Origin: Onchidella celtica
Lineage: Eukaryota > Mollusca > Gastropoda > Systellommatophora > Onchidiidae
DNA length: 64,000 nt
Reading direction: 5' to 3'
Assembly (NCBI GenBank): GCA_963931925.1
Contig: OZ007569.1
Location: forward strand, 10,753,663-10,817,662
Below the pieces are notes generated by a model. That model searched no databases. It was not told the DNA's origin and saw only the letters and a list, made by a program, of their open reading frames with translations. The position numbers and the translations under genes are program-made. Below are positions 1-50,300 of the stretch, one piece after another. The stretch's first letter is position 1; every line of letters begins with the position of its first letter.

Positions 1-12727
<12,727 letters not shown>

Positions 12728-13176: not shown

Positions 13177-14272
13177 CTCTATGTGAAATTCGTTGACTTC
13201 GAAAAGGCCTTCGACAGCATCCACAGAGAGAGTATATGGCGCATTCTTCGGCACTATGGGATTCCCAGCAAGCTTGTTGAACTCATCAAAAGCTTTTACA
13301 AGAACTTCAGTTGCAGTGTCGGAAACAGTGATGCATCCTTGAAGTGAAAACTGGTGTACGGCAAGGATGTGTGATATCAACAATTTTGTTTAACCTCGTA
13401 ATCGACTGGATTATGCGGAAAACTACAGAGGATGCACCAAGAGGCATCAGATGGACACTCTTCGACAACTTAGAGGATTTGGACTTTGCGGATGACCTTG
13501 CGCTATTGTCACATAGTCACCAACACATGCAAGATAAGACGCAGAGACTACATAATTTTGGATGCAAAGTAGGCCTTCGGATTAGCCAGAAGAAGACAGA
13601 GATTATGACCCTAAATGTAGACACTCCAGCACCAGTGCAAGTAGATGACAAGAACCTCACCACGACGGACAAATTTAAATACCTTGGTAGCATTATCAGA
13701 CCAGAGGGTGGCACAAAGGAGGACATCCAAAGTAGGCTGGGAAATGCAAGGGCTGTCTTTCAAAGTATGAGCAACATCTGGAAATCGACACAATACGGCA
13801 TCAACACCAAGATCAGACTGTACCAAAGCTGTGTCCTATCCACACTCCTGTATGGATCAGAGTGTTGGCGAATGACAGAAGGTGACCTCGCCAAGTTGTC
13901 TTCCTTCCACACCACATGTCTTCGTAGGATTCTCCGCATCTTTTGGCCAAACAAGATTTCTAATCAGGAACTACTAAGGCGATGCAAGCAAGAAGAAATA
14001 GCCAACATCATCACGAAGAGACGATGGAGATGGCTTGGACACGTGCTGCGAAAGGAAGCAAATTCTATAACCAAAACAGCACCTCAGTGGACACCGGAGG
14101 GACGGCGCAAGCGAGGCAGACCCAAGGCAACCTGGCGGAGAACAATCGAGGCAGAGATGAAATCCTTCAATCACTCATGGGGAACTCTCGCAAAGATGGC
14201 CCAGGACAGACAGGGCTGGAGATCCTTTGTTGCTGCCCTAAGCACCAGTGGGTGCAACAGGAAATAGTAGTA
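13177..14272 (+). pseudogene. 5'-truncated LINE reverse transcriptase with 14-bp target duplication
   Basis: The fragment encodes the RT core (FVDFEKAFDSI, then a frameshift near 13340, TGVRQGCVISTILFNLVIDW, and the catalytic FADDLALL). The C-terminal domain follows (YLGSIIRPEGG, LYGSECWRMT, RRRWRWLGHVLRK, GRRKRGRPKATWRRTI). It stops at about 14267 and ends in a TAGTAG tail rather than poly(A). GTTTCCATTTAGAG stands on both sides (13163-13176 and 14273-14286), an exact 14-bp target-site duplication. The endonuclease and the N-terminal half of the RT are missing, so the copy is dead. The type matches RTE/Nimb-like ORFs; the exact clade is not assigned. Confidence 0.9.
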
Positions 14273-18300: not shown

Positions 18301-21300
18301 CATCTGGTCCTCCTCTTGCTTAGTAGCATGTGTTATCTTTATAAATATATACCAACTTAAACAAGTTCTCTGACCATGTGTTGTGACACCACACTACCCA
18401 CGGCCCCTGTATTGCTATCGTGTACCGTGTGGGCAGTCTGTTCACATTCATTGAATGATACCTCTGCAAGTATATATGCTTCCGATTCTAACTTTTACAT
18501 CTGATTCTGATCGTTTAATTCGATTGAAACATTACTGTTGTCAGCCAAAGGAAAGGAATCAGTATTCATATAAAGACTGAGATCTGATGTCATTTTGATA
18601 TTACATTGAAATGACATGTTAAAGAAGGGAGGCGACTGTGCCAAAAAAGAAAAGGAAAAAAAAAATGGGTATATGTCTTGCCTTGTTATTTGCCATTTTT
18701 ACTGGGGTAGAGAGATCTTGGGTAATGGGCATTTTTAGCAGAACATTGCATCTCGTTATAGCCAAGTTCCACTGTACAAAAAAACACAGGTAAAAAATTG
18801 CGAACAACTTGGACTTTATTTTATTAAACAATATAGTAAGAGCCTAAAGTAGGTCATTATCGGTAACTTAATCTATGTTTGGTGTTAGCAGGACAAAATG
18901 GTTTAATTTTGATATTTTATAAGATTATTCCAGATTATATCACTTTTTTGTTTGTGCACATTTCAGGAAAATGCAAAATTGTCTGCTTTATATGCAAAAG
19001 TAGAAGCAGCCAATAAGGTAAGGTTCTATGTCAGCTTACTCTTAGAAAATGAATGACAAAATACCATTTTGCATAAATTTGTTTGTTGTGTTGCCATATT
19101 TGACTGTTCACTCGAAACGTACAAGTTTCTTACTTCTCTCTACTTGACACTCAAATTCCCTGTACAGTAAACTGCATTGGCTGCTGGCCAGCTAGCCCGA
19201 AAGGAGTAGTTTACGCTATTTTCAACCTCTGATTTGTCATATAAATCTAGTACCAATGTGGTTGATTTAGATATTTAAAAAAAAAATTCATTCAGAGTAT
19301 TGAATTTATGGTGAAAACGTATTGGAGTGGTACTAAAAAAGAAGTCACTGTGCCATAAGCTGGCCCCCAAGAAATTCACTTCACATGTAGCATGTTATTT
19401 ATTTGGGCTCCGCGAAATGGGCGGATGCTTACGAATGGACCAGGACAGGAATACTGGAATAGGCACAATGTACAGGGCTGTTAGAGTTCCGCGGATACGC
19501 GAAAATCCGGGATTGAGAAAGGTCCGGTCATCCGCATTGAAATGTCAGTTTCTTTGCTATCCATCTACAGCCAGGTACATTGTATCGTGAACAGAACTGT
19601 AATCAAGGGATTTTAAAATAACCCGTTCATCTACAAAACAGCAAGAATTTTTCAAGTCAAACGGGGAAGTTGTTTGGTTTTACATACTCATGTCATGAGA
19701 GGAAGTCATCAGCATTGGACAGAAGTCGATCGTGCTTGCGTGAACAGCATTCTGCTAGGCCGAAGTTCAGGGGTTGGCATCATTATCCACTGACAGCCCC
19801 GAATGTAAGCAAAATAAAATTGTTTCGTTTGATGCAAAATATGCATAGTTTCGAATTTCTAAAGTCAGTCTAAATTCAAAATAACTTTTAAAAAAAGGTT
19901 TTTTCTGTAGGATTCCAGAGGAAATTCGCGTGAATTTTGGCATATAGTAATTAAAAAGCTCATCTATGTTTCTTTTAGAATATGAAAGATCACCTGAATT
20001 CAGTGCAGACCTCCCTAGTATTACGGAATTGCCGTAATCATTACAGAAAACGAGGTCCGATTACGGGATTACGAAAATCGTCGGTAAATTACGAATTTTC
20101 GAAAATCGTACAAATTTTCCGATAAATTAGAGAAAAAATTATAATAACGAATATAATTTTACGAATGAATCAAAGGCCGAATGATTCGAGCTGTTTGGTT
20201 GGCTTCCGATCTTTGGGCCTACCGCTTTACTGCGCATGCGTTCATCACTTCATTCACTTGTCTTCTTCCGACTACCCCATGTGAATTTCTCTCCTCATTC
20301 ATTCAATAGGCGTTCGTTACCGTCAGTGCGTCGTACTAATATAATATCGGTGTTTGTAGTAAAAGAGGGGTTCCGTGTTGTAGACTTCGCTTCCGGTTGA
20401 TAGATTTCGTTGAAAATGGCTATGTCCGACTACGGTTCTAAGACGCTCACCCAGCTAAAAGAAGAATGCAGGAAAAGATGCATCAAAATAAGTGGGAAAA
20501 AGGCAGAATTGGTATCGAGGTAAGTAACTTTAATATTTTAAACTAACGAATCTATAATGAATCGGGCATATTTTGCAATATGCCGCTATGCCTATAGATA
20601 CATCTAGCTAGCAGTCGCCAGTAGTAGCAAAATCATGATCTACATCTACATAGATAGATCTAGACTCTAGATCTAGTAATAGTAGTTTTTGTTTACAGTT
20701 TACGATTAAAATCACATATATATATAGATCTAGATCTAGATCTAGAATCTAGATCTAGGTCTAATTACTATTAACTTCCTGCAGTTATCATGAATATAAT
20801 GGTAGACTAGGATCTAGTTCTAGCTGCATGAGATTCAATGGTGAATGAATTCAATGAGTCATAAATTTAGAAAAAGACCTCTGTGTTAATGGGAGGACTT
20901 CTGAATGCATTCCATAGCTCGACAAGTGCATAGGCATTGTCAGATTGATATGTAACGACGTGAGGGTCTAATCAGTTTGTACCATCGAGGCCGTAGGCCG
21001 ATGTTCGTCTGGGCAGTAGTCAGATTGACATATCAGGGAAAGCCGCCGGGGTAACTTATAACTATGTATTATTTTCACTCGGGCTTTGGAACGCATTCGG
21101 AAGTCCTTCCGTGTTAATAAAGGTACTTAAATTTTATCGAAGATATTGTAGTTTTCTAGTCTGAGTGTCAGAAAATGCATATCTAGTAGACAGTGTAACA
21201 AGACATATAAATTGACAAGACCTGTTAAAAATATTACTCTTGAAGTGAACACCATGTTGAACTGTTTTATCTCACATCTATCCACTTGACATTAAACTAA

Positions 21301-24300
21301 AAAGCCAAATCACAAATGCCAAATGATGCTATTGCATTTTCTAAGTTTAAAAAAAAAAAAGTTAAGCCTTTCCTGATTTATTTTCAGGCTCGAGTTCTTT
21401 GACAAATGTCATATAGGGAAAAGCAGTGACCAAAAAGTGGACTATGTTATGGCTGTCCCAAGCAGAAGTTCATACAAAGATATTCACACTGATGTCATTC
21501 TGCCTCCTGTTACTGCAGAATCAGTGAAGGCATACCTGTCAGCCATGCATTTAACAGTAAAACAGAGTGATCGGGAGCTGTATGAGGAGAGACATATTTT
21601 ATTTTTACGTTCATCAGAACTGCTGCCTCCCCTCACATACATTTATGCACAAGTGAGAGCCAGCAAGAAAGTGAAAGTGAGATACTTTGTTGATATTTCA
21701 CTGGGAAAAGTAGGAACCATAGAACAGTGCGAGTGCAGCATTGGCATGGGACCAAATGCTGCATGCAAGCATGTTGTTATGGTCCTCCTAGGCCTGGTTG
21801 ACCATCACAACAAGTTACCGATCATTACGTATGAAACATGTACACAGAGGCTACAAACTTTTCATCAACCCAAGCCACGCACGGGTTCACCAATAAAAGC
21901 AAAAAGTCTCGACGTTAAGGTGAAAATGCATATCGATGATCCAAGGCCACAAGAATGTCAGAACGTCACATCGTATGCTTCACACTTCAGAAATGTCGTC
22001 ATGGCTGACAAAAGTGCCAGCAGCATGCCAATTTTTCAACTGTATGCTCCTGCCAACACCAGAGCAGTGGCCATGGATCACACGTATTCAGCTCTTGGCA
22101 TAGAAGAACACTTTCTGAGGCAGCTGGGACTCATAACCATGAGTGAATCCCAACGCAAGGTAAGTGCTGAGCCTTGAAGTTCACTGTTCAGTTTTGCTAA
22201 ACATTATTGCTGGGCAGTTGAATTATCTCCTTCTGTAACTCCGGATTTCCCCCGTCAGATATAATTTGTGAAAATGGACTAAATGTAGTATCAGAATTTT
22301 CTATTAATATTATTAGGCATTTGACAGATTAAGATTAATTTAAAAATAATCACTGTTCACAAGGTAATTATATGCATGGGTTTGATGAAAAGCCAGTGTT
22401 TCATATGATTTCTACTGAAAATACTGTGATTAGATCAGACCTATGTATGCAGAACTTGATCATAAATTTATGGTAATGGTAAGCAGTTGATGATATAAAT
22501 ATTTATTGTTCAGTAATTTTATTTTCCACACAGACATTAAATATGGCAACTCTGCACCAGGCAGGCTCATCAAAGTGGCTTGCAGAAAGGAGGATAAGGC
22601 TAACTGCATCACAGTTTGGACAGATCTGCAAGGCCAGAGAAAAGAACAAGGTAGGCTTATTATTAATGAACTGCAGTTTATTTTTGTGCATCAGACTTGT
22701 TAAATTACCACCTCAATGAAAACTTTATAAAATTATGTTATCCAAATTTATGAGATCTAATCCATCTTGTTGCCAGTTCATAGGAAAAAAAATAGGTAAG
22801 GTTTCCAATATTTAGTATTAATAGGCCTCTATAAATAACTGTGTCAGTCTTTTAAAAATAACTGATAGCTGACATTGACATGTTAAATTATTGTCTTTTT
22901 TATTTGGAGATTTTGGGAGTATAATTCAGTACTATATAATAAGCTTCATGTTCAACTGATCTCACATCCCACAGTGCTTTTGGCAATATAACACTAACTC
23001 GACTAACAATAATACATGCAGGTTTTTTTTTTTTTTTTTTACTCTTCTAATGACTGCATTTTTATTGTTTTTGCAGCACTTGGATTTAATAATGCCTGTA
23101 ACGTCTCTGTGCACTTACAGTAAAATAAATGGAAGGCTTCATCTTTAAATTTCTTTTACTTTTAGCACCCAAACAACCAACACCAGTTAGGATGCAAGCG
23201 ATTATATGTTTTTTTTGTTTTTTTTTTCCTGGGCTCATGTCCTTTGATCTTTTGTGGATAATCTATCTGAAATAGAGGCTTCAACTGTTCGAACCATTCA
23301 ATTCACACAATTGGCTTGGTAACACAGAAGTCTGCTAATGAGTTTATGCATTTTTGTTTTCATTTTGACAGATTTCACAGGGACTTCTGAATCCTCTGGA
23401 CTTGAGTCATCTGCCTGCAATAGCACATGGGAAGAAATACGAACATGTTGCAATTAAGCAGTTTATGGAACTGACCAGATGCACGGTTGAAAAGTCAGGT
23501 CTACAAGTGCACAAAGTTTTTCCATTCATCGGTGCATCACCAGATGGTTTAATAATTGATAGTGACCATAAAAGCGTTGTAGAGGTTAAGTGTCCCTATG
23601 CAAGTAGGGATAGGAGTATTTGTGCTGAGACAGTGCCCTATCTGAAACAGACCGAACAGGGTCTGGAATTATGTTCTAATCATAATCATTTTTTCCAGAT
23701 TCAAGGACAGATGGCATGCTGTGAAGCAAATAAATGTTATTTTGTCATTTACACCTTGAATGACTTAAAAGTCATTGAAGTGAAAAGAAATGATGAATTT
23801 ATAAAGAAAATGTTGGATGAATTGGTATCCTTCTTCAATGACTACTTCAAAACTTCCCTCTTGGATAAATTTTTATACAAAGACTGTTAGCTTTTAACTT
23901 TTAATATTTCATTTTCTAAAGTGATCTAAATTTTCTTTCACATGAAAATTATGATGTTTGCTTTGCAGAAGTTTAAAAATTGCAGTGATTCTGTACTGTT
24001 TTATTAAACATTTCTGATAAACTTTTACTGTAAACTGTAACAAGTAACACAACATACTGTAAATGATAAAAATTGAAAGTCATGCCATGGTGGTACGTGT
24101 ATTAGAAAAACAGAATTAGCATTTAATATAGTAACATGAAATTTATTTCAGTGCACATGTCTTGTTTGACAGTAATACATTTATTATAATTTCATATGGG
24201 CATAATAACTATACAAATTTTACAATCTTTCAATCTATCTAAGGCAGAAATGTGCCCAGAAATTTATGTGAGATAATGAATAATATGGAACAACAGTACA

Positions 24301-27300
24301 TGTATTACTTTTTTGTGCACCAAGCTCAAGAAAGTTTTTTTCTCTCTCCTGAGAGATCTCTCAATCTACAGAACACACAAGATGCGTTTTGTGACTTACA
24401 ATGACAATTCATTTTTTATTACAGAAATAACTCAGTATCGTTTTTTTTTTAAATTTTACTGTATCAATTTTTTAAAGGGCTGCATATCTTGTTGTAGACT
24501 TTCTAATGCTCCTTTTTGAATTAAAAAGCACAAAGGTGGATTTGATATTTCTTAAGTGTTTGCTTTTACAACTCTCCAAGTATATTTATCATAAATTTAT
24601 GTATTCTCATGGAAGACCTGGTATAGTAATATTGTAATAAAAAGATGGTCGTCATTTTTTTTTTTTTTTGGCCATGATAAAAATAAGTTGCCTTTATGTT
24701 TTGTATTCTATATGTTTAAATATGTTCAATTAATTTAAAATCATTTGGTCTCCCACATCATCAATGCATTTTTCCATTTTTGATCTCAAAGAACAGTGAT
24801 CTTCCAAAGTGGATGACATGTATTTCCATATATAATACAGTGTACATGTAATTATAAATCATTGTCATAAAAATAATAAATAAGAGCAAAATTGTTGTTT
24901 GACAATCTGCAGTACTGGCTGACAAGATTCTGAATAATAGAGGACACTGAAGATGAAACATTAGTTATTTTCAGTTTGCAATCACTAAAGATAAGATAAG
25001 ATATGACTTTATTATCCTGTTTCCAGGAAATTTGTTGTCACAGCATTCAGTAACAGCACAACAGCAAATACTATATCTAAAACCTACAGGTCTTTAAGGC
25101 ACACACGCACATTGCTTAAACAGCCTTACCAACAAGTAAGAACATTGCTCACACACACACAAACACACACACTGTAAGAACAATCCATTAGGAAAAAAAC
25201 TAACAACAGCATACTACATCAGGAAACTCTGCTATTTTGAATTGCGGATGGCAAAAAAGATCGTCTATAGCGCTCTCTGTTCGTTTTTAAATACAGTATA
25301 CGTCCACTTCTTTGGGATCGGACTATCTGATGGAAAGAGTAACACCAGTTATGCAGTATGATTCTAATCTTTTGAAATATGTCATGGTCCAATAGGCCTG
25401 CATTACTATGGCAATGTAGCATAATAATATAGATGTCTCTACATAACATCAGGTTAATTTAATGAGAAACTGGCATCTTTCACCATCTTTAAGCATACTG
25501 TGAAACAACATTGTTTCTGAAATTTGTCAACATCAAACATACAAAAATAATATCAGGGGCAATATTTGTTTCAGTTGCATTTAGTGATGACTTAAGGATT
25601 TTGTATACCTTTACATTACCTATTATCCTTTCAACATGAACGCGTTTGCTTGAAATACATCTATCTTCCGCAACTGCTTCTGGTGTCATTCTGTTTTTCT
25701 TTTTGAAAAAATTCGGCATGTTAATCTTAACATCTTTAGTTCGAAACATGTCTTGGATATTAAAACCTTTGTCAGCCATGATGGAATCCCCTGCCTCTAC
25801 TTTGTCCAATAGACTGCATCTTTCTACAATCTGCCTGTCACTAGCTGCCCCCCCCCCCCCCCCCCATAAGCTTCTGAACATAATGATATTTGCCCCCCCC
25901 CCCTGGCGTTACACCCACTAAGACTTTAACAGTATTCCTATGATTTTATGTAGAAAATGTTGCTCTCTGGGCAGTTGGGTTTGATGGTCTCTGCACTGGT
26001 ATTTCTGTCCCATCAATTATTACTCTTGTGTCAGGATATTTCATCTTGAAATCAAGTGGGCAGTAATGATCAACAATGTATTTGTGAGCCCATGTGTTTA
26101 TTTCTCCCCACTGCTTGGAACAAAATTTAACCCACGTATAACAAATGTTGCGCACAGTAAATTCTGAAAGACAAAACATGTTTGATAATTCTGCATTGCA
26201 ATAATGATGTCTCAGATACACTAGCATAACAAGAAAAGCAGTCTGGGGAACCACAGAATCAATACTTTTCTTTGTAAAGATAGACTTAATATTATTCACA
26301 TTTGGACCTAAAGAATGAAAAACTGTCATGAACCTATCAAAATTGGGTAAGCCAGTGTAATGCAGGCAATCTTTTGGTGAATATCTGATCCTATCAATCG
26401 ACACATAAGGATGCGTAAAAAAATGCTGCTGGTAAATAATTGAATTTAATTCATTTTCATCTTTATCATCTTCATCATAGGGAACTCTCTTTACAGTAAA
26501 TTTTTCTTTGGTCAAATCGACATCACTCTCCTCCTCATTATCACCTTCGTCAAGATCAAGAGAAATGATCTCCCGTGAATTAACTAAAGAAATTGTAGGT
26601 GTATCACAGATGCCTTCACCACCAGATGATATATCTGGTGGTGAAGGCTCAGACATTACAGCATTACAATAAGACATTTCCACAAACTCCGACACAGGAA
26701 TGTCCTCCTCAAGATACACCTTTTCTGCCTCCTGTCTTTCAATTTCCCTTTCTTGTTTGGCAATCTGCTCTTCCTCATCCCGTCTTATCTCTCTCAGGCG
26801 TCGTCTTTGGTCCCTAGGCTCTTCAGTAAGGGCATGAGGCTGAAATATTTGTGGGAAAGAACCCTTCTTTAAAAGTCTGTTTTTTCTCGGTGTTTCTGTG
26901 AAAGTATAAGTATTTTCATATTTAATACATGTAGTATTAAATAATACTACTAAAGGAGTAAAATAGGCCTTTAGAAAGACATTATTTAGTAATATTACTA
27001 CACAACGTGAAATTTGTTCACATCTGATTTCTTCTATGCAAAGAAAAAAAAAAAGGCTTGATATCCCTGGTTTGTATGCAATTATGTATTGTGTAGCCCT
27101 TCCCCTTTTCCACGTACTCAAACATAGCAATTTAGCATACAAATTAGCAGCTGAGTGAGCAAATTATTTTTTCTGTCAATCTTGAGAATCATTTTCAGTA
27201 ACAGGCTAGTGTAAATCTGAGCAAATCGCCAATAGAGCAATCTTCACTACTTTCAAAATCTAAAACCATGTTTTGGTTGTCGTTTGAATACACATTACAA

Positions 27301-30300
27301 TGTTTTTTAGTGACAGCCTACCGAATGACTAAGGTCAGCACCCTAACCTTAAGTGAAAATCACGTGTCAAACACACACACAAATTAATGTCCCTATCACA
27401 TAGAATTCATACACATACAAATTATTTGTTTCATTTTCAGGTTAAAAGGATAAGAGATAGTATAGGATCTGGACTAGATCTGTAGATCTAGGCTCAAGAA
27501 ATGACTAGGTTTGGGGTTGGGGAAAAGGACAGGGTCATAGGTTTAAGGTTGGGAACTGACATGATAGGCAGGCCATACAGAACTCTTCCTGTTTTGGTAA
27601 TGGTATAGACGCAATGCAACTAGATCTAGATATCTAGAACTTGACTAGTCTAGACTAGATCTACATGTCCATGTACTTACTTCTCCATGTTGGTGTCGAT
27701 GAATCCACAAAGTCATCTTCACTAAAGTGTTTTGCACATAAAACAGAACTATGGGTCCAGCTCCATGCCTTTCTTTTCCTGTTGACAAACGCAATCCATT
27801 TTTTCTTGACTTTGTCGTCTTTGGGGAAGCGATATCCACCCTCTGTATGACAGAGAGGTATAACGCAGTAGTTCACCATTTTACCCCAGCAGAACAAATG
27901 GCTACCGAACCCCTCTTTTGCTCGGGCAAATCAGGGGAGATAATTTGAGGTTACGGATGCCTATTCAGTTCTTGAGCTAGAACAGTGAAGTGTCCATTTA
28001 ATCTGCGTGTACCCCTGTGAATTTTTCTTGGATATTTTATTCTATTTTGTGCCTTGTGAACCTATTACTTGGAGATGTGATTTGCTTATTTGTGAGTAGA
28101 TCTAGCCTTTTACACTAAGTCTATCGTACTCGTTTACCTCGTCGATGATGGCAGAACCGACTCCGAAGAAGTTTTTGTTGCATGTTGGTCTCATTACAGA
28201 ATTTTTGTTCAGATTACAGAAAAATTATGAATCCATTACAGAATTTTGAATTCCAAACTAGGGAGGTCTGTCGCTGTCTCACCTGGTTTTGTAAAGTTGA
28301 ATTTCAGCAGTATAGATTCAGCTGCTTTGTTGCACTGCCCCTTTACCAACCTCTTGGGAGAAAATGCTTTGGTGATTTCAGCTGAGATGTTGGTAAGAGA
28401 AGAAAAATTGCTAGTTTTTTTTTACAAATTACAAAAAGCAAATCCTTGACAGAGAGAGCCCAGCTCTTTTTATTTAGGTGGAAACGTGCCGCTGTACTTT
28501 GAAAGAAAAGAAGAGGGACGGGAAGTCAGAGCAAAATGTGAATTTGAGAAGAAAAAAAATGATGGCAACCAAGAAGAACAAATCAGAAAGAAATAAAAAA
28601 CCGTTACTGCAAATACCATTCTCACACCTCTGTGAAAAATAATGGCGGCCTCTGCACAGGTGATGAAGAAGTTGACTTTTTGTTTGCAAATTCGAAGACA
28701 AATAAAAGAAGCTCTTGAAAATGAAATTCGGCCTAAAAAAATTCTCGGCAAAGCATCAAAGCAAAACAGGGTTAGGAAGGAGTTCCGTACTCGAGCGCCA
28801 AAGACCAGAAACTAACTAAAAGAGATGATACATAGCTACCCCGGGGGCTTTCCCTGATATGTCAATCTGACTACTGCCCAGACGAACATCGGCCTACGGC
28901 CTCGATGATACAAACTGACTAGACCCTCACGTCGTTACTTATCAATCTATCAAGTGGCGCTCGAGTAAGGTACTCCTCCCCAGGGTTACACCAGAGCTAG
29001 CAGAAAAACTGAAAAATCATTTACATGGTGATCTCTCACGTAATTAAAATTCAGTTGCTTGAGTAAAATTTATGTGCTCCTATTTCAGGCTGTGGGTTTC
29101 CCCAAACTTAATTAAATATTATTGCTTTCTTTATTATTGCAAAGAAACTTTAATATTTTGGGGCTTTATAGTCATTTTATTCTGTTGGTAAAGATTGTTG
29201 TTGTGTGCTAGATGTGTTAAAATCAATAAAATTTGCAATTTTCTCATATGTGGCATTTTAAAATTTTGACACCATATATATTTTTTTGTTTACATTGTAT
29301 GTATTTTAAATTGATACAGTTGCATGCATTAATTTGTTTTCACTTAGATATAAAAACCAATGCATTACATTTTTCGTTGTGTTCCTGTGGTTATGTCAAA
29401 AGTTGTGAATTTCATTATTTTTACCTTCCCTGCTACATTTTGCAAAATATGGCTTTTTGGGCCATTTTTACATCATTAAAACACAACTTTGTAATGCTTT
29501 TATACCCTTGATAAAAATTGAGTCTATTTTTATTGTTGGGAACTGTTGATGAAGTTGCTTGAATGTGAGTGAGATATTGAAGAAAATATTGATGTACAAA
29601 CTTGGCCTCTCAAGCACTGTGGCAATATGACATAATTCTAAAATTTTTAAAAGGATATAACTTTCTTAAATACATGTATTAAGATCCAGACTTACATTTG
29701 GTACCAACATACTCAGGATAGCAAGTACTTTGCAACTAAAAGTAAGAAAACAGGATATCTTCATATTTAAAAATCAGTTATCTAGTAATAAAAAACAAGT
29801 ACAGGAGGGGGGGGGGGGTGTGTGTTTGTTAAATCCCTCATGGAAATGTTCACCAACATGTCCATCATAATACCAGTTATATTGTGCTAGCTTTTGCAGT
29901 AATCCATTGTTGAACATGATGTTAGGCTAATCCAGGTGTATACTTCATGTCAAGAAGTGTGAATCATGAAAGCTAAGCGGATATAACATTCAGTGACAAT
30001 CATGCCTTTTGCTCAGGTTAAACCATTCCAAGGAAAGCCCATATAGTTGTCAAACAAATGACTACATGTATTTCATAAACATTGCCTTTCTGAAACTAGG
30101 AACATGTTCTGAATAAAGAAAATCATCAATAATTATAATATTGTAAATGTAATGCATAAGGTCTTGACTTCAGTGCATCATAACTATGATTTACAACCAA
30201 GCAGTGGCTTCATTTTCCATAAGAAATTAATATTCATCTTTTTGTTTGTTTTTCCCTAACAGCTTGAAGATCCCTTGGCTGCCTTTCCAGTGTTCAAGAA

Positions 30301-47332: not shown

Positions 47333-50300
47333 CTATGGAATGGGGATAATAGAGTCACGGTCCTTGCCAACGCCAACCCACTTCACTGTAGAGTAATGGG
47401 AAATAGTAATTGTGGTTATTATCATCATTATTGTTAATATTCAGTAACATGGGGCTCCTTTACGTAACACAAACTGAGTTGTGTGTGCTTTTCAGACAAA
47501 AGTATTTTTGTATTGCTGATACCTGAATAGAATTTGTTCCAAACCTATTTTTGAAAAAGGAAACCAAAAGCAAAAGAACAACAAAAATTGGGTCTTGAGG
47601 TCTAAAATGAGATACACATTCTGTGATCAAGTAATGAGACATTTATAATTCTTTCTAATTTCAGGCAAGACCAAAGCACTGCTTGAATATGGGGGTGTGC
47701 ATGAGAAAATCCACAATAAGTCGGCAACATGACATTTTGAGTTCTGTACATAATTATAATAAAGGGCCAGACATTTCTGATAAATTGAAGTCAGTGACTC
47801 CCCCTAAAACAAGATTTTGAGAAAACGGCATTTAAGTGGGTCCTCGTCCCGGGAGGTGGAAACAGGACAAAGTAGGGGATTGCTGGGTTCGGGCGAAGTA
47901 CGGTGTGACCTTGTGTCACTTAGGCGCTACGCTAGCCGTGAAGGCCATCCCGGGTCACCCCGAAACGTCGCTGGCTAACGGCTCTGGTGAAATCCTGGCA
48001 GCGGGGGATGGATGAGGACGAAAGGCGACCGAAGAATCTTTGGGCACGGCTTTTGTCTCTCGTGGTTGCGGGCAGAGGATTCCGTTTTTGGAACAATGGC
48101 CGGGACCAATGCACAGTATGTGCACTGCGCTTTCAGAAGGCAATGGCAGACCACTGGAAGTATTTCTTGCCAAAAGCTACAATGAAAAGCACTCCACCAA
48201 ATGATCTGCAAAATTTGGCAGACAAATGAATGGCCAACAGACTGGAAGCTACAAGAATTCGTCATGCTATACAAAAGCGGCAATGTCAAAGACTGTGGAA
48301 ATTATAGAACCATCGCCCTCATCAGTCACACCAGCAAAATCCTGCTCATCATCATACTCAACAGAATGAAATCAAAGGTAGAAGAGGAACTATCAGAATG
48401 TCAAGCTGGTTACAGGACCAACAGAGGAACCGCTGACATGCTCTTCATACTACAAATAATGATTGAACAGATAAGAAGCAATGGAAATGAAGCCTTCATC
48501 ACGTTCATAGACTACAGCAAAGCGTTCGACAGCGTTAGGCACCATCACCTGTTCGATATAATGATTAAGATGGGATTCCCGAAACACCTTGTGACCCTCA
48601 TCGCTGCACTATACCACGAACAAAAGGCAACGATTAGATGGAACAATGAGAACTGTCCATATTTCAACATCGAGAAAGGAGTCAGACAGGGTTGCATACT
48701 TTCACCTCATCTTTTCAATATTTATACTGAGCAGATCATGAGAAACGCAGACATAGAAGATATGGGAATAAAGATCGGAGGCCGAAACATCATAAACCTT
48801 CGCTACGCTGATGACACAGCTCTTATGTCAGATAACATCACCAGCATGAAAAGAGTGTTGCACAGAGTGGATGAAGCGGGCAAGACAGCAGGCCTACACC
48901 TAAATGCTAAGAAAACGAAAGTCATGCATACTGGAACAGGGCACCATGAACACCAGGAGATACTAGTAAACAAAACAGCACTAGAAAAAGTGACTGATTT
49001 CAAATACCTAGGATCACATAAATCGCAAGATGGAAGCTGCTCAAAGGACATAAAAACAAGGATAGGAATGGCAAAACACAAAATGGTTCAACTAAACAAC
49101 ATTTGGAAGGATAGAGGCACACCAACGGACCTCAAAGTGAACATACTTAAGTGCTTGATCTGGCCAGTCCTACTATATGGTTGTGAAGCCTGGACACTCA
49201 AAAAGGCAGACATAACAAGATTGGAGGCAGCTGAAATGTGGCTTTACAGAAGGCTACTCAGAATAAGTTGGACAGAAAGGAGAACAAATACAAGCATCTT
49301 AGAACAGCTTGGCACCACCAGAAGAATAACACCTGAAATAAATAAAAGAAGACTTGCATACATCGGCCACGTGGCCCGAAACAAAAGCACGGCCCTTATG
49401 ATATCAATCCTTCAAGGAAAGACAGAAACAAAGAGAAAACAAGGAAGACCACCCATTACATATCACGATAACATCAAGAAAGTCAGCCAGCTGGAAATAA
49501 GTGAACTAACTAGGAAAGCTAAGGACAGGATTGGGTGGAGGAGATTTTGTCGTGACATCCACTGTAGCAGCTAACATCGATGACGATGAAGCCGACAGGT
49601 GAGGTGAGCTAATTGACCAAGTATTATTGGAGTGATTGTTGTTAGGAGATCGTAGTCTAATTACAAAGTCGTTATAGATATCATAGTGAGTAGTGTTCAC
49701 TGCTCATCTACAGTTTACCCTGTAACATGCCACGGTCCCCTAAACAACAGCCAAGTTGGAAGTTTGTGACGGACCCATATTTTCACTTCAAAACCGTTTT
49801 TCTCAAAATCAGCTTTGCCGACTTATGCCGGGTTTTCTCATGCACACTCCCATATTGATGTTCAAGGCTGACACTGACAATTACTTTCTTTATTCCATTT
49901 CAAATTGTACTAATTTGCATAAACTGTTTATATGGTTTAGTTTTCGATTCTAGTCGATTATACACATGCATCCATAACAAATGGGATATGATTTCATGAT
50001 ATTAAAGATTACATTATGCATGTTGTCCATATTTATCCTCATTGTCCGAGTTCAAAATTTCTTTGAGAGGTATTTTTTACATGGAAATTGCGAGTTTTAA
50101 AAATGCCATAACAGATAATCACCTACCACGAAGATGTGACTGACAACTTACCAGGAACTCCTATATGGGATTCAATAGTACGGACATAATGTTGAGCATT
50201 GGCGGGCAATTCAGAGAATGTCCTGGCTTTTTCTGAGGATTGTTTCCATCCAGGCAAAGTCAAATATTCAACCTGTACTTTCTGGAGATCATCATCCGAT

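Follow-up and report, generated by a model that had tools for sequence, protein, structure and literature searches.

The stretch of DNA analysed here, 64,000 nucleotides of contig OZ007569.1 from the gastropod Onchidella celtica (referred to below as the window), contains a two-gene DNA transposon lying inside another mobile element. The inner element occupies positions 20308-27962 (7,655 bp, AGGC...GCCT, no strand assigned), with borders common to copies of it found elsewhere in the genome. Judged by its target-site duplication (TSD), its target site and its gene content, it is an ISL2EU transposon, belonging to the PIF/Harbinger-ISL2EU-Spy superfamily, and represents a new family of a transposon kind known from animals, cleanly nested. 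It is highly probable that this element was inserted by a cut-and-paste event into an A|AT|T site of an older, hAT6-like element of 608 bp.

The initial annotation of the window had placed the ends of the two-gene element farther out, at the 14-bp sequence CAGACCTCCCTAGT (20006-20019, plus strand) and its reverse complement at 28257-28270. These repeats are indeed exact, and the two genes between them are convergent; the repeats, however, are ends of the outer element and not of the transposon that carries the genes. When the whole 8,265-bp stretch between them was used as a query against the genome (1.14 Gb), 41 matches were obtained, which, after 16 short self-inverted ones (37 bp) had been dropped and split matches merged, corresponded to 19 places including the window. 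All 18 further places listed, 93-98% identical per piece, were confined to positions 281-7967 of the query (typically 299-7960) and none reached the 14-bp ends; copies ending elsewhere were what the annotation itself had named as evidence against its borders. The left border AAT|AGGC and the right border GCCT|ATT were found in 11 of 13 copies (L010-L022).

The outer layer gave the complementary result. Its left part (20006-20307, plus strand) opens with the terminal inverted repeat (TIR) CAGACCTCCCTAGT, and its right part (27963-28270, plus strand), the first two bases of which are the second copy of AT, closes with ACTAGGGAGGTCTG; both parts are supported by matches of the 608-bp query, obtained by rejoining 20006-20307 with 27965-28270 so that AT is present once. 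This rejoined sequence matched nine genomic places over positions 1-608 with 94-97% identity. In the eight of these that were inspected as loci, the target site is uninterrupted; the solo copies are 599-611 bp long, end in the 14-bp repeats and are flanked in every case by 6-bp direct duplications, as seen by eye. The empty site reads CATTCAATTCAG (L039-L046), while in the window it is filled, as CATTCAAT followed by the element and ATTCAG. Comparison of the two defines a 2-bp duplication of AT within A|AT|T, with copies at 20306-20307 and 27963-27964 (plus strand), as in the published description of ISL2EU.

A single 8,265-bp transposon bounded by CAGACCTCCCTAGT and carrying both genes would account for the exact inverted ends that enclose them. 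It is, however, scarcely credible, as these ends are missing wherever else the gene-bearing element is listed (18 places), bound a gene-free element whose empty site is intact in all eight inspected cases, and belong to a layer with a duplication of 6 bp rather than AT. The 14-bp repeats were therefore rejected as ends of the two-gene element. Since its listed copies stop inside these repeats and the solo outer copies have the empty site, the two-gene element is best read as a later insertion into the outer one. The result moves the element boundaries, and the two layers are backed by paralogous empty sites.

The outer element is best read, from its sequence, as a non-autonomous hAT6-like element of 608 bp, because of its 6-bp duplications, the hAT-type matches in a larger relative, and a protein start common to both. 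In this relative (L047), Dimer_Tnp_hAT scored 19.3 bits (cut-off 21.4) and DUF4371 30.8 bits (cut-off 32.1), both slightly below the thresholds, and the protein start MMAEPTPKK of the relative (L047, L048) is also coded by the 608-bp element. The region of the relative (L047/L048, C13:12327500-12339000) contains, in addition, piggyBac-like transposase frames, one of them matching DDE_Tnp_1_7 at 1.5e-62, which is apparently a case of further nesting.

The left TIR of the ISL2EU element, AGGCGTTCGTTACC (20308-20321, plus strand), matches the right one (27949-27962, minus strand; AGGCATCCGTAACC as the reverse complement) at 11 of 14 positions, counted by eye. Close to the ends, an inverted repeat of 19 bp (20358-20376, plus strand; partner at 27904-27922, 89%) is also present in other copies of the element and is a candidate protein-binding site. 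The resemblance to ISL2EU noted in the initial annotation was borne out, since the element agrees in its duplication, its target and its genes with the published description given in the survey of Han et al. 2015 (PMC4482050).

The transposase gene lies on the minus strand. Its first exon (27681-27879), with the border set by eye at the donor GTAAGT, codes for the THAP domain (Pfam 5.8e-10), and the main exon (25489-26895; acceptor also by eye) for a linker, a helix-turn-helix (HTH) domain and the DDE_Tnp_4 domain (5.9e-24); the HTH_Tnp_4 match (2.4e-4) is under its cut-off. Thus, the THAP-DDE transposase reported in the initial annotation is present, but not as a single frame, for the main exon is interrupted near 25.85-25.95 kb. 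Because of this break, the window copy would be mobile only with help from another copy; runs of G in the main exon may hold assembly errors. Among 14 copies of the element, variable sites numbered 54 of 942 in the linker and HTH part, 13 of 354 in the DDE half and 10 of 198 in THAP. In an alignment of 13 copies (excluding L019), five (L010-L014) have in common a 7-bp insertion in the main exon, which divides the transposase into two open frames of 231-232 and 206-319 residues. A change common to these copies suggests that they form a subfamily which expanded after the insertion.

The nuclease gene, on the plus strand, is predicted to consist of four exons, all with GT-AG borders, and to code for 503 residues without an internal stop. 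Exon 1 (20416-20519) contains the start codon (ATG) and the larger part of SAP, exon 2 (21388-22159) the end of SAP and a SWIM-like motif, exon 3 (22534-22650) the start of the YqaJ domain, and exon 4 (23372-23890; coding to 23887, then TAG) the YqaJ core with SPDG...VEVKC. The composition SAP-SWIM-YqaJ given in the initial annotation is supported by Pfam for SAP (6.1e-9; 35.7 bits against a cut-off of 23.9) and for YqaJ (1.7e-16, profile positions 1-149 of 150); the SWIM part is a CxCx9CxH motif identified by eye, with no score for Pfam SWIM in this protein. Weak matches in the PDB were 3syy, Exonuclease (E 0.0032), 5yet, Uncharacterized protein R354 (0.0045), and 1avq, LAMBDA EXONUCLEASE (0.022). 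In a scan of viral contigs, the top segments among the best 80 of 128 relatives were at most 31% identical. Across the 14 copies, the nuclease exons have 63 variable sites in 1,509 positions versus 108 in 1,492 for the introns, and in eight of the copies these exons contain neither a stop nor a frameshift. This lower exon variation suggests that the nuclease protein matters, at whichever step.

The linkage of YqaJ nuclease to transposase genes extends through the genome. Profile scoring covered the best 150 of 226 YqaJ candidates and the best 150 of 1,393 DDE_Tnp_4 candidates, and the counts are lower bounds. At least 95 of the 150 scored YqaJ matches have a scored DDE_Tnp_4 match within 8 kb, where about 0.3 pairs would be expected by chance, and a standalone nuclease gene is thereby disfavoured. 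At least 83 of these pairs are convergent, as in the window. At least 12 places hold divergent pairs, for example C10:26257492 and C7:51521435.

Eight nuclease sequences were treated as families, namely that of the window, L001, L003 to L007 and L049, leaving out of the alignment L002, a near copy of L001, and L008, a near copy of L007. SPDG and E-x-K are identical in all eight; overall, the other seven proteins are 24-35% identical to that of the window. The CxC...CxH motif is complete in four (window, L001, L003 and L005); in L006 and L049 it is divided over separate stretches, in L007 the sequence retrieved contained just the CxH half, and in L004 a stop disrupts it. Pfam SWIM gave a weak score in L001 (14.5 bits against a cut-off of 19.6). 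SAP was seen in three families, over the cut-off of 23.9 bits in the window and below it in L005 (21.9) and L049 (17.4). L001-L008 gave no SAP in a motif search, which missed even the domain detected by Pfam in L005 and was not sensitive enough to establish absence; the sequences retrieved for the remaining families may end before a SAP exon. In L001 a C-terminal PHD finger, over the Pfam cut-off, is fused to the YqaJ nuclease, and PHD-like cysteines occur in the nucleases of L004 and L005. The second ISL2EU protein thus retains its nuclease residues, together with modules of DNA-binding type in several families of one genome.

The family of L049 (C16:42124000-42132000) is a sister of that in the window. 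It codes for a 523-residue HTH-DDE frame with a THAP exon scoring 23.3 bits (cut-off 23.9), as well as for a SAP-like/SWIM-like/YqaJ gene. Its borders, AAT|AGGC and CCT|ATT, are present at 10 of 12 ends of six solo copies (L061 and L064 differ). With an 801-bp query placed across a head-to-tail joint, and with the best 40 of 105 candidates scored, at least 35 of the 40 matches stop at the same base, with a rounded identity of 100%. Head-to-tail arrays of this family were found at two loci. The one on C16 has three copies with a period of 6,302 bp (100% identity over the 1,699 bp compared), and that at C1:24406477-24419170 has two. The joints, TTCT-ATT-AGGC on C16 and TTCT-ATATT-AGGC on C1, lack the terminal CCT of the right end, 3 bp that solo copies retain. 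Trimmed joints of this sort might be traces left by end processing, but a sample of two loci does not allow a decision.

These features can be arranged into a mechanism. The THAP-HTH-DDE transposase most likely binds the TIRs and the subterminal repeats, excises the element and joins it to the target, with cuts staggered by 2 bp. Its convergent neighbour would code for a YqaJ protein of lambda-exonuclease type, anchored on DNA by SAP and the SWIM-like zinc motif, and this nuclease most likely works on the DNA ends that arise in transposition. It might, for instance, resect the donor break, which would then be repaired from a sister copy, so that the number of elements would rise. Nesting, ends, AT duplication and empty sites are observed directly, as are the domain matches, the kept nuclease residues and the proximity to transposase genes; the exon borders are predictions from the sequence. 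Which protein binds what, the substrate of the nuclease and the step at which it works, as well as the DNA-end-processing step in transposition itself, are what we infer. Resection of the donor break, as opposed to end trimming or a mainly DNA-binding role, is a real possibility, although one that we put forward tentatively.

One of the competing explanations would make the YqaJ protein mainly a DNA-binding partner, which replaces the Myb-like protein of Harbinger elements and guides the transposase to the ends or into the nucleus, its nuclease activity being dispensable. The YqaJ gene sits in the slot that a Myb/SANT second gene occupies in sister groups, as described in the ISL2EU survey (PMC4482050), and the SAP domain and SWIM-like motif of the window protein, with the PHD finger found over the cut-off in one other family, would suit such a function. 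The identity of SPDG and E-x-K across eight families as divergent as these argues that catalysis has been kept, and we find this explanation somewhat doubtful. The nuclease might instead trim excised transposon ends, or make tandem joints, rather than resect the donor break, and the loss of CCT at the joints of L049 arrays would be in keeping with this. However, only two loci are concerned, the joints could also have arisen by slippage during replication or by unequal crossing-over together with end joining, and in the window family we noticed no tandem. We consider this explanation unlikely. A broader proposal, that ISL2EU elements supply their own end processing, with a lambda-type exonuclease targeted by SAP/SWIM (in some families PHD) modules resecting breaks, driving copy gain and leaving head-to-tail arrays with trimmed ends such as those at the two L049 loci, is more speculative still. 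The L049 family, with its dozens of near-identical copies, would offer a practical test system for the role of the nuclease in transposition.

Several observations weigh against nested insertion of an ISL2EU element with the gene functions proposed here. Two copies deviate at the borders, L017 having no exact left end and L019 no exact right end. The window TIR begins with AGG instead of the GG usual in the published description of ISL2EU (PMC4482050), which is a small difference; the empty site places the first A of AGGC inside the element. In the outer layer, the 6-bp duplication of the window copy agrees at four of six positions only (TCAGTG/TCGCTG), and no exact copy of the left 14-mer was detected in the larger relative (L047, L048). 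No intact autonomous copy of the window family was seen among the 14 copies, because none of them has a minus-strand open frame longer than 428 residues, against about 468 expected for the main transposase exon. Variable sites in the nuclease gene are distributed over the codon positions as 20, 17 and 26, only a slight third-position excess, and L002 has PPDG in place of SPDG, with D retained. Finally, 55 of the 150 scored YqaJ matches are without a listed DDE partner; the window copy was counted among them because only 150 of the 1,393 DDE candidates were scored.

The location of the transposon inside a host intron, as initially annotated, could not be confirmed. At 9830-10282 (minus strand) lies the closest exon of host type that was seen, which had no match in Pfam. 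It is one of the leucine-rich-repeat-like stretches, others of which lie at 4283 and 5292 (minus strand), and these presumably resemble LRRC9; a position of the element in one of the introns of such a gene is at most conjectural. Reverse-transcriptase-like open frames of the type found in retrotransposons without long terminal repeats were recognized by eye at 13332-14264 and 48186-49571, both on the plus strand.

Several known systems can be compared with the two layers described here. The name hAT6 has been given to hAT elements with a 6-bp TSD, with Repbase Reports 2007 cited for it in the passage of PMC12730594 on this group. The outer element is like them in that its TIR begins with CAG, its TSD was 6 bp in all eight inspected copies, and its larger relative has hAT-type matches; it is unlike them in being non-autonomous, with 608 bp, and in that the Pfam matches of the relative fall just below the cut-off.

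As to the pairing of genes, the view that a nuclease is an unusual or new partner for a transposase has to be rejected, as a transposase with a YqaJ protein is the published ISL2EU gene set according to the description in PMC4482050, and at least 95 of 150 scored YqaJ matches are paired here. That survey refers to the functions of the additional genes as still unknown, and the words SWIM and SAP are absent from its main text. In a limited literature search that did not include Repbase, we found no description of SAP, SWIM or PHD additions to the ISL2EU YqaJ protein; the passages of PMC10225492 dealing with YqaJ-domain genes count them without a SWIM fusion. As this genome is rich in ISL2EU-like pairs, the architecture of the nuclease merits a survey.

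A search of the literature for lambda exonuclease, Harbinger and transposase found only PMC9587614, on Kolobok elements. As presented in the relevant part of that work, KolobokE and KolobokP likewise pair a DDE transposase with a nuclease, which in KolobokE is lambda-exonuclease-like. The KolobokP nuclease, of the His-Me type, is encoded downstream on the other strand, and these elements form tandem arrays, as does the L049 family. Unlike the elements studied here, Kolobok transposases belong to another superfamily, and the long terminal direct repeats common to KolobokP arrays were not observed in the present elements. The closest counterpart is ISL2EU itself, which the survey of Han et al. 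2015 (PMC4482050) characterizes by its AT TSD in A|AT|T and by two proteins, one a DDE/HTH/THAP transposase and the other with a YqaJ domain. With 7.66 kb, the window element is longer than the published mean of about 4.84 kb; in its duplication and target site, in having a TIR, and in the combination of a DDE/HTH/THAP transposase with a YqaJ protein, it is like ISL2EU.

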